Source: a virus. Taken from it: a stretch of DNA of 26,768 bases. A program made the position numbers and the translations under genes. Positions 20,037-22,653 of this stretch are shown here, piece after piece. Location of the stretch: positions 1 through 26,768 of the IMG/VR virus record IMGVR_UViG_3300047560_000324, one strand, 5' to 3'. The stretch's first letter is position 1. Each line of letters begins with the position of its first letter. The notes below the pieces were generated by a model, which was not told where the DNA came from, did no database searches, and saw only the letters and a program-made list of their open reading frames with translations.

Positions 20037-20879
20037 TTAGATATATGATGAATCGGTACGATAACGCTTCATGGTATCTTCCACAGTCTGTGCTGTGATA
20101 CCAGCATCATCTAAGGTCTGCTTATTGATAGTATATTCAGTACCCGCAATCATCACTTTGCCGATTGCTTCCTGTTTCAATTTCTCAAATGACTCACGAA
20201 TGACCTCACGTTGAGCATCTAACAGGGTTTTCTTACTACCATCATCAAGAGTCCAACCTTTGGCAAGAAAGTTGCTTAGACGATACTGATGGTTCTTACT
20301 TTTCTGATCATTATTAATCTTGAGGATCTTATTCTGAATACAGTCATAAGTCTCACGGTTGATATAGAGTTTTTCCTCTACAGGAACATAAGATACCTTG
20401 CAATGCTTATAGTCAAAGTGTGCTAGTAGTTCTTCACGGGTCTGATACTTGGTGAGAATATACTGTGCATCTGTTTTGTGATTATTGATAACATCAACAA
20501 TTTCTTTGTTGTGCATATATGCCATCATTTCAGAACGTGACCATTCCGTGTCTGCTAAAGGAACATCCTGAAAGATAGAATTGATAGGTGTGACAGAAAG
20601 GAGGTCGCCACGCAACACCCGTTCTCTTTCTTTCTCTTGTCTTTCACTCTGCTTCTTGAAACCTTCTGTCAGGTGATTATATACAACATAATCATTGTTC
20701 AATACAAAGATATCAATGTCCTTGAACTTATTATTTTGTAGGACATTCGTAAAGAATCCACCAGCAATCACGACGTTATGGCCATATAAACCTGATAAGA
20801 GATTTCGTGATTTGATTAGGGACTGGATTTCGGCCTTGGCGTTTTCAATAGAGAAGGATTCATTCGCATTAAACATCAT
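20037..20879 (-). CDS. Putative nucleotidyltransferase-fold protein
   Basis: The 280-residue protein shows the polymerase-beta-like nucleotidyltransferase signature: VVIAGGFFTNVLQ (36-48; the GG pair at 40-41) followed by KFKDIDIFV (51-59), with D54 and D56 as the likely metal-binding residues. Around 155-170 a segment HFDYKHCKVSYVPVEEKLYI is followed by a helical region with arginines (YRLSNFLAKGWTLDD), a layout I recall in phage proteins of this fold. A third carboxylate is expected on the VSYV strand but is not obvious, so activity is uncertain. It lies between gp33 and gp59, which are adjacent in T4. The ribosome site is weak (GGTGA), and either of two adjacent ATGs could start it. Confidence 0.6.
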   Translation of the reverse strand: MMFNANESFSIENAKAEIQSLIKSRNLLSGLYGHNVVIAGGFFTNVLQNNKFKDIDIFVLNNDYVVYNHLTEGFKKQSERQEKERERVLRGDLLSVTPINSIFQDVPLADTEWSRSEMMAYMHNKEIVDVINNHKTDAQYILTKYQTREELLAHFDYKHCKVSYVPVEEKLYINRETYDCIQNKILKINNDQKSKNHQYRLSNFLAKGWTLDDGSKKTLLDAQREVIRESFEKLKQEAIGKVMIAGTEYTINKQTLDDAGITAQTVEDTMKRYRTDSSYI

Positions 20880-20888
20880 ATCACCATA

Positions 20889-21113
20889 TTAAAGAGGGAG
20901 TTGGGAAGTGTTTGACTTTTTGAGGTAGTGTAGTTCTTCGGCTTCTAGTTTGATCTTTGACTTGAGGACACCAGAGACTAACTTAGCTGCTGTCTCTACC
21001 TCAAATCCTGTTTCTTCACAATACATAACAACTGCATCAATGTAAGGTATGTCTTTCATATAGACCATCTCCTCGATGGCCATTGAAAAGCGGCTGATAT
21101 CTTCTGCGTTCAT
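20889..21113 (-). CDS. 33: Late transcription coactivator gp33
   Basis: This 74-residue protein resembles gp33 of T4-like phages. FSMAIEEMVYMKDIPYIDAV, VMYCEETGFEVETAAKLVSG and VLKSKIKLEAEELHYLKKS correspond to the C-terminal part of T4 gp33 (IIEKMVEEFGMSYLEATTAF, then the helix ending in 'IIEKIQSEA'). gp33 binds the RNA polymerase flap and the sliding clamp gp45, linking replication to late promoters of the TATAAATA type. It is shorter than T4 gp33 (112) but similar to versions I recall from marine T4-like phages. AAGGAA lies 8 bases before the ATG. It is the first coding gene downstream of the tmRNA, so readthrough from the tmRNA promoter may reach it. Confidence 0.75.
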   Translation of the reverse strand: MNAEDISRFSMAIEEMVYMKDIPYIDAVVMYCEETGFEVETAAKLVSGVLKSKIKLEAEELHYLKKSNTSQLPL

Positions 21114-21183
21114 ATCCGTTCCTTGTTATCATAATATAAAGTGCCACCATTTCTGTTTCGAGGCTGGTGGCCCACCCAAAGGA

Positions 21184-21228
21184 TTACGCTGCTAGAGCGA
21201 AAGCCTCATAGGCGTTGTTGTCGTTTGC
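21184..21228 (-). other. tmRNA proteolysis tag reading frame
   Basis: Fourteen sense codons and TAA encode ANDNNAYEAFALAA. The ANDN start and ALAA end are those of alphaproteobacterial tags, and the ALAA end is what ClpXP-type proteases recognise. The frame ends close to the short stem that closes the coding piece. Confidence 0.93.
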
Positions 21229-21292
21229 CTTTACGATTTGCTTTCGATCTCCTTACGACCTTACTGAATCCTGTCGAACCTGAATCGCCCCC

Positions 21293-21374
21293 ATCAAAGA
21301 TACACCTATTATCATATCCCATCGGCTAGCACGATATAAGACCACACAAACGACCTCGGTGGCTGGTGTATCTA
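21293..21374 (-). other. tmRNA intervening segment removed on processing
   Basis: These 82 bases join the CCA end of the acceptor piece to the 5' end of the coding piece. Near the edges AGATACACC and GGTGTATCT are perfectly complementary, which would extend the acceptor stem and present the loop to processing enzymes. No protein-coding content is seen. Confidence 0.75.
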
Positions 21375-21447
21375 TGGTGGAGGCGGTGGGAACTGCCCCC
21401 ACGTCCAAGAAACCTATGTTTCGTCTCTCAACGATCTAAGCATATTA

Positions 21448-21476
21448 TTTATAGCACAAAACTCATTGCGTGTCAA
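21448..21476 (-). promoter_or_regulatory. Sigma70-type promoter of the tmRNA
   Basis: The minus strand reads TTGACA (21476-21471), 17 bases, then TATAAA (21453-21448). Transcription would begin near 21441, right at the start of the acceptor piece. The -10 region continues as TATAAATA, which is also the T4 late core, so the RNA could be made both early and late. Confidence 0.85.
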
Positions 21477-21795: not shown

Positions 21796-21995
21796 TTGAA
21801 TACCTCCCAAAATTCTTTCATTGCCAATTCGTAATCCAATACTAACTCTTTAGCTTCTGATATGGTATCAACAATCTGTAATAGTTTGATACCCTCAGGA
21901 TCGTTTTCAATGTAGGCATACTTACCATCTTCGGTAGCAGCACACGCAACATAGTTATCGTCCGAAATATAACAAGTTTTAGTAGCCTGTTTCAT
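21792..21995 (-). CDS. Hypothetical protein, 67 residues
   Basis: A small acidic protein (MKQATKTCYISDDNYVACAA...) predicted to have two or three beta strands followed by a helix (TISEAKELVLDYELAMKEFW). No family is recognised. The start overlaps the end of the nuclease gene by 17 bases and the stop overlaps the next ATG (ATGA), so it sits inside a tightly coupled cluster of small genes. The ribosome site is weak. Confidence 0.6.
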   Translation of the reverse strand: MKQATKTCYISDDNYVACAATEDGKYAYIENDPEGIKLLQIVDTISEAKELVLDYELAMKEFWEVFK

Positions 21996-22653
21996 TTCTA
22001 AACTGTTTCACCTTTCTTGCTAACTCTGGTATATAATCTCTGCGGTTCTTAACAAACACCTGAGGTTGTTCATTATCAACAGATATTAATACCACAATTT
22101 GCTTACATTGCACTCCCGTCATCTCCTCATACATGAGAGAATAGCAGGTACATTGTTCAAAGTAGTTCAAGATCCAATCTTCTCTCTTAGGCTTTAGAGA
22201 AGTCTTAAAGTCAATGATAGAAGGGACGCCATCAAACTCGGCAATACAATCAACTTGACCAGCGAGACCAAGTGTCTCTGAATAGAGCATAGTTTCCAGA
22301 TAGTGAACATTATCAATCCTATTAATGGTAGGTCTAATCTCCAGAAATGCATGTTGCATATCTGGCATTACATCTGGTTCAGTGAGGAATCCTTTCTGAT
22401 TAGAGATATAAGATTCCATAAGAGAATGGAATTTTGTACCTCTGCGGCTTGCTCGTGCCGAGATTTTGTTCGCTTCTTCTTCTCCGACTTTTTTGCGCCA
22501 CTTTGCAATAGAGTCGCCTTTGAAGTGAGATAGAAAAGTCGTAACCGAGGGGAGTTTAGTACCCTTTGGCGAGATATAAAATCGCTTGCCATTATATTCT
22601 TCTCTCTTTAGTTCACATAGAGGGGTTGTGTTTAGGTGGGTAAATGTTTTCAA
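21979..22653 (-). CDS. RecB/Cas4-like PD-(D/E)XK nuclease
   Basis: The 224-residue product has the full motif set of the RecB/Cas4 nuclease group: RGTKFHSLMESY with His75, E120 in a beta strand, GLAGQVDCIAEF with Asp135, PSIIDFKTSLK with Asp148 and Lys150, and QCTCY (Q167-Y171), the QxxxY motif. Phage homologues are usually called exonucleases. No N-terminal helicase or four-cysteine iron-sulphur cluster is evident. The start is TTG at 22653; there is no in-frame ATG until residue 79, and the conserved RFYISPKGTKLPSVTTFL segment needs the earlier start. The TTG overlaps the stop of a 13-codon ORF as TTGA, suggesting that it is translated by coupling. Confidence 0.82.
   Translation of the reverse strand: MKTFTHLNTTPLCELKREEYNGKRFYISPKGTKLPSVTTFLSHFKGDSIAKWRKKVGEEEANKISARASRRGTKFHSLMESYISNQKGFLTEPDVMPDMQHAFLEIRPTINRIDNVHYLETMLYSETLGLAGQVDCIAEFDGVPSIIDFKTSLKPKREDWILNYFEQCTCYSLMYEEMTGVQCKQIVVLISVDNEQPQVFVKNRRDYIPELARKVKQFRNETGY

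Follow-up and report, generated by a model that had tools for sequence, protein, structure and literature searches.

A conserved permuted tmRNA in a T4-like phage and its spacer as a probable refuge for HNH homing endonucleases in related phages

Circularly permuted (two-piece) tmRNAs are known from bacteria, where they are represented by the models RF04321, RF01849 (alpha) and RF01850 (beta), and from phages, in which 53 of 133 unique tmRNA structures are of the two-piece kind (PMC9004378). The closest known counterparts of the gene described here belong to the Methylophilales phage Melnitz (MZ577097), whose two-piece tmRNA has been published together with proposed roles (PMC9004378), and the Pelagibacter phage Mosig (MT647606); in both, the permuted tmRNA lies between a PD-(D/E)XK exonuclease gene and gp33. 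Melnitz infects OM43, a member of a beta/gamma lineage, yet carries a tmRNA of the alpha type, and a riboswitch has been said to control this tmRNA (PMC9004378). Homing-type genes in removed parts of tmRNA genes have been described as LAGLIDADG genes in group I introns; in the available portions of the 97,179-sequence tmRNA survey that covers them, endonuclease genes are mentioned in group I introns only, and the contents noted for permuted spacers are a tRNA and a repeat (PMC11915505). In T4-like phages, I-TevI of the td intron, SegB, which sits in a tRNA region, and MobE combine a late promoter within a hairpin that masks the ribosome binding site (RBS) with an ORF end that contributes to host RNA structure, and early translation harms splicing in the I-TevI-type arrangement (PMC2988022).

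The DNA analyzed here (the window, 26768 bases of an IMG/VR virus record) carries a permuted tmRNA gene on its minus strand (Table 1). ARAGORN called a permuted tmRNA with the tag ANDNNAYEAFALAA on that strand, and two Rfam covariance models matched over their full length, RF04321 (tmRNA_permuted) at 21436-21184 (92.3 bits, E 6.7e-17, gathering 47) and RF01849 (alpha_tmRNA) at 21480-21140 (88.9 bits, E 3.9e-23, gathering 50). The acceptor piece is 5' of the coding piece, G3-U70 and CCA are both present, the tag frame has a resume codon and a stop (ANDNNAYEAFALAA*), and all elements modelled for bacterial permuted tmRNAs are found in the window. When co-folded, the two pieces form the acceptor stem, the T arm and inter-piece helices, with an energy of -52.3 versus -42.5 for shuffled sequences (z = -2.6). 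No endonuclease gene is present in the 82-nt spacer of the window, which is an empty allele. An initial annotation of this DNA had read the region as a phage-encoded two-piece tmRNA of alphaproteobacterial type and had proposed covariance models as a check, and both models, scoring above gathering, bear this reading out. Its further structural details also agree with the sequence, namely predicted ends at 21375 (CCA) and 21292 (start of the coding piece), a G3-U70 wobble in GGGGGCG/CGCCTCC, a 9-bp stem closing the spacer, and P2 pairing between the pieces; it had placed the gene correctly and had left the strand, which is minus, unstated.

Table 1. Coordinates of the tmRNA gene, its promoter and its neighbours in the window
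Feature	Position	Strand	Basis or remark
-35 element TTGACA, 17 nt ahead of the -10/late box	21471..21476	minus	also found in relatives
TATAAATA, sigma-70 -10-like and T4 late-promoter motif	21446..21453	minus	sequence motif
Circularly permuted tmRNA, whole gene	21436-21140	minus	Rfam, ARAGORN
Acceptor piece: P2 5' side, T arm, P1 3' strand, encoded ACCA	21375..21440	minus	5' end inferred
T arm of acceptor piece	21402-21386	minus	
P1 3' strand CGCCUCC	21385-21379	minus	
Encoded ACCA	21378-21375	minus	
Excised spacer (IVS), 82 nt, empty allele	21293..21374	minus	
Spacer-closing 9-bp stem AGATACACC/GGTGTATCT	21373-21365 / 21306-21298	minus	
Coding piece: P1 5' strand, P2 3' side, tag ORF, 3' stem region to ~21140	21140..21292	minus	
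P1 5' strand GGGGGCG	21292-21286	minus	
Tag reading frame ANDNNAYEAFALAA and stop UAA	21184..21228 (tag 21228-21187, stop 21186-21184)	minus	ARAGORN
gp33 (late promoter transcriptional regulator), next gene after the tmRNA	20889..21113	minus	PHROG 254, E 9e-21
PD-(D/E)XK exonuclease, upstream neighbour of tmRNA	21979..22653	minus	PHROG 298, E 8e-72

The surroundings of the gene tie it to phages already described. The gene order PhoH - exonuclease - tmRNA - gp33 - gp59 - gp32 is common to the window and Melnitz, Mosig has an annotated tmRNA at the same locus between the exonuclease and gp33, and the Pelagibacter phage HTVC008M (KC465899) has an unannotated permuted tmRNA at 145161-145370 between the exonuclease and a late transcription factor. 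These three phages are among the closest relatives of the window by baseplate protein gp6, and the earlier assignment to a T4-like phage with gp33 beside the tmRNA is right. Melnitz further shares the alpha-type tmRNA and the TTGACA-N17-TATAAATA promoter; the tags and spacers of Melnitz and Mosig are unlike those of the window. Compared with bacterial permuted tmRNAs, that of the window resides in a phage genome, has a T4-late-type promoter and adjoins gp33. A nucleotidyltransferase-like protein (PHROG 1614, 4400) is encoded between gp33 and gp59 (20037-20879, minus), and a short ORF (MKKVYLIALVFLSLGISGCNS..., 21646-21518, minus), likely encoding a small lipoprotein, lies just upstream of the tmRNA promoter. 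The window tmRNA is one more instance of a kind already published, which a few marine phages were known to carry, and the novelty first ascribed to a phage tmRNA is forestalled by the Melnitz publication and the Mosig annotation. What is new about the locus lies not in the window RNA but in the endonucleases of relatives, where a dedicated clade colonizes the discarded spacer.

Two inferences drawn earlier from tmRNAs of this kind need revision. The initial annotation held the tmRNA to be the best guide to the host; we rejected host prediction from tmRNA type, since the alpha-type tmRNA of a phage with an OM43 host demonstrates that this type does not fix the host. Beta-type tmRNAs are carried by phages with a related exonuclease gene, and the host is poorly predicted from the tmRNA. 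The Melnitz glutamine riboswitch (RF01739; 8355-8403 in our Melnitz record, L002) is positioned downstream of the tmRNA and before gp33 and thus can hardly control the tmRNA; control of gp33 is more likely. No RF01739 match was obtained in the window between 20800 and 22200, even at E<=5, which sets this locus apart from that of Melnitz.

A sequence matching the strong promoter attributed to the tmRNA is present, with TTGACA, a 17-nt interval and TATAAATA upstream of the gene. Exact TATAAATA occurs just once in the whole window, here, and other late genes of this phage must therefore use variant boxes or other promoters. TATAAAT/AATAAATA precedes the tmRNA in 50 of 82 relatives (background, 2.6%) at a nearly fixed distance to the T-stem, and TTGACA (at least 5 of 6 positions matching) stands 15-19 nt ahead of the box in 32 of the 54 relatives with a late-type box (5% after shuffling). 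Because box and hexamer both recur in relatives, these motifs suggest that one promoter could be used by the sigma-70 polymerase of the host as well as by the late system of the phage.

Relatives were gathered via the neighbouring exonuclease, gp33, DNA patterns and the spacer endonuclease, and their tmRNAs were located by a finder that required seven P1 pairs, with the letters left free, as well as a tag. G3-U70 was present in all 84 distinct phage permuted tmRNAs, across 14 P1 stem variants (e.g., GGGGGCG/CGCCUCC, GGGCCGG/CCGGUCC, and GUGCCGG/CCGGUAC). This invariance despite the varied stems indicates that the phage permuted tmRNA is under selection and is no decaying passenger. Tags were diverse (51 distinct), with 80 of 84 ending in ALAA (69) or RLAA (11), and the P2 helices between the pieces covaried, with many double changes among 43 sequences. 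The gp33 set comprised 60 loci with at least 1.6 kb of upstream sequence; 53 of them had a tmRNA by motif in the 1.6 kb preceding gp33, and six more (L123, L153, L156, L158, L159, and L160) were positive by Rfam or ARAGORN, giving at least 59 of 60, with L161 checked by motif alone. Across this T4-like branch, the tmRNA has long occupied the interval between exonuclease and gp33 and is close to fixation there.

The endonuclease genes that occupy the spacer in relatives had been missed in the first reading of the window. Spacers of 482-492 nt with an ORF were found in L004/L084-L087 and L099-L101. The ORF matches the PHROG 655 homing endonuclease (E 7e-15) and a beta-beta-alpha start is predicted for its product; the Pfam HNH match was slightly below the cut-off, and a model of the protein compared with the PDB by Foldseek placed HNH domains near the top, all at E > 1 and not significant. 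HNH genes lie between CCA and the P1 5' strand, in the same orientation as the tmRNA, in 16 phage lineages (L084, L099, L222, L223, L226, L228, L300, L312, L313, L315, L316, L319, L321, L324, L327, and L374), with spacer residence read by eye in L300, L312, L313, L319, L321, L324, and L327. Complementary P1 strands and the tag are intact in each of the 16; in L222, pair 2-71 is changed on both sides (GUGCCGG/CCGGUAC) and G3-U70 is kept. Several filled lineages recur in 3-4 separate contigs, which argues against misassembly. The insertion point leaves the T loop intact, unlike that of a T-loop group I intron, and no group I intron was among the Rfam matches of L099 and L222.

The inserted genes are closely fitted to the RNA around them. 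The ends of the spacer pair over at least 9 positions in all 12 filled alleles tested (p <= 0.04 each against shuffled sequences). In every case the right arm of this closing stem consists of the final bases of the endonuclease ORF or of bases adjacent to them. The TGA stop is often one base ahead of P1, and in L226, L228, and L315 the endonuclease frame overlaps the first 15-27 nt of the coding piece, so that a single molecule cannot serve both uses. A leader hairpin lies beside or over the RBS in 10 of the 12, with exact TATAAATA inside it in 8; L084 and L222 have leaders of 10-11 nt without such a hairpin. Filled alleles are probably under-annotated, since ARAGORN reported none of the endonuclease-filled tmRNA genes and in the Rfam search at genome scale many of them came out as two halves, each below threshold; when single loci were run through cmscan, the tmRNAs of L099 and L222 were detected. 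Separately, a permuted tmRNA missing from the annotation of Sinorhizobium phage Phosso (L003, 2440-3042) has a spacer of 410 nt and the tag ANDNVSTKVALAA, and short spacer ORFs of another sort, both without a Pfam match, are found in L111 (4596-4802, 68 aa) and L147 (2248-2481, 77 aa), the latter extending into the coding piece.

These features resemble the I-TevI, SegB, and MobE arrangements in the late promoter held within an RBS-masking hairpin and in the contribution of the ORF end to RNA structure, and SegB offers a parallel in its tRNA-region site. I-TevI and SegB are GIY-YIG enzymes, whereas the endonuclease of the relatives is an HNH protein lodged in a permuted tmRNA spacer. The LAGLIDADG case likewise has a homing-type gene in a removed part of a tmRNA gene (PMC11915505), and differs in that the relatives have an HNH gene in a permuted gene with no intron and that removal would depend on tRNA processing instead of self-splicing. 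The open-access literature yielded no earlier description of an endonuclease gene residing in the spacer of a permuted tmRNA. Nor did a scan of bacterial genomes give a tmRNA with such an HNH gene, its sole match being an Actinomycetes MAG without a tmRNA.

Insertion in the spacer would cost the tmRNA little because the spacer is discarded, and a homing endonuclease gene, in most cases equipped with a late promoter of its own and an RBS-masking hairpin, may use it as an intron-like refuge. We think it probable, from sequence comparisons, that in T4-like phages the permuted-tmRNA spacer offers a dedicated HNH homing clade an intron-like niche, in which host tRNA processing would "splice", the last codons would keep the closing stem, and the late-promoter hairpin over the RBS would separate tmRNA maturation from endonuclease translation. 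Alternatively, the spacer genes may be passengers of ordinary recombination rather than homing elements, as might be expected from the other short ORFs in the spacers of L111 and L147 and from HNH relatives elsewhere in phage genomes. We regard this as unlikely, although it deserves some weight. Against it, the members of one HNH clade reside solely in tmRNA spacers or at their edge: a clade of 18 members (support 92) holds all spacer residents plus L249 and L308, in which the HNH gene is just upstream of the tmRNA, and L319, the only clade member labelled "other", likewise turned out to lie in a spacer. The late-promoter hairpin is recurrent, and the spacer HNH genes are under strong purifying selection (dN/dS, 0.06-0.24).

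Empty and filled alleles occur in related phages, as in L113 versus L099 and the window versus L084. The empty L113 and filled L099 are 98.7% identical over the coding piece and 78-88% in flanking segments, and this coding-piece similarity may reflect constraint on the RNA. The window and L084 agree at 93-96% in the flanks and 77% in the acceptor piece, a pattern compatible with co-conversion. These flank comparisons are suggestive of homing, and other recombination can also account for them. Elsewhere, L230 and L267 have duplicated or truncated tmRNA acceptor pieces beside an HNH gene, possibly relics of homing, and in L332 (2515-2825) a one-piece tmRNA with the tag VESEFALAA adjoins an HNH relative.

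Taken as a whole, the locus very likely encodes a functional permuted tmRNA whose spacer serves, in relatives, as a refuge for an HNH endonuclease best read as a homing one. A single precursor would be transcribed from the dual promoter, sigma-70 (TTGACA-N17-TATAAA) and T4 late (TATAAATA). Host tRNA-processing enzymes would remove the 82-nt spacer, as in known permuted tmRNAs, and the acceptor and coding pieces would remain, held by P1 and P2. The product would be charged with alanine via G3-U70 and, with host SmpB, would free ribosomes that stall on broken mRNAs in the infected cell, adding the ...ALAA degradation tag to the nascent chains. SmpB was not found in 20 related phage records, several of them 140-470 kb (control genomes were positive in 10 of 14), so the phage tmRNA would need the host protein and probably works with it. 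The suggestion of the initial annotation that the phage controls ribosome rescue or retags proteins during infection is possible, though the RNA could not act without SmpB from the host. On our analysis, the phage tmRNA would most likely keep ribosome rescue going when the tmRNA of the host has been lost or does not suffice.

The authors of the Melnitz study suggested that phage tmRNA mainly tags host proteins for degradation, thereby recycling amino acids, and two features fit this proposal, the retained ...LAA tag ending, which is read by host proteases, and the sigma-70 part of the promoter, which is usable early. However, trans-translation targets stalled ribosomes rather than finished proteins, and the late-promoter motif points to expression at a stage dominated by phage proteins; we judge such recycling improbable and less likely than sustained ribosome rescue. 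Still harder to credit is a captured host tmRNA gene that drifts without function in the phage. Host tmRNA genes are often integration sites from which phages pick up fragments (PMC9004378), and the SmpB result would also fit, but near-universal retention at one locus, the invariant G3-U70, compensated P1 and P2, and intact tags are at odds with drift. The least credible reading is that of a decoy inhibiting host tmRNA: inhibitors of tmRNA exist among phages, such as the CDS-less tmRNA of phage DS6A, but that type (PMC11915505) has no tag, whereas tag frame and stop are kept in 84 of 84 here, and, even with the tag required by our finder, nearly all loci of the gp33 set have the tag-bearing form.

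In sum, the window provides a further, conserved case of probable ribosome rescue encoded by a phage, and its relatives indicate that a homing-type gene can live in a structural RNA gene without an intron, its removal being left to host tRNA processing. Filled and empty alleles offer a testable parallel to I-TevI, as well as a genetic handle on what phage tmRNA does.
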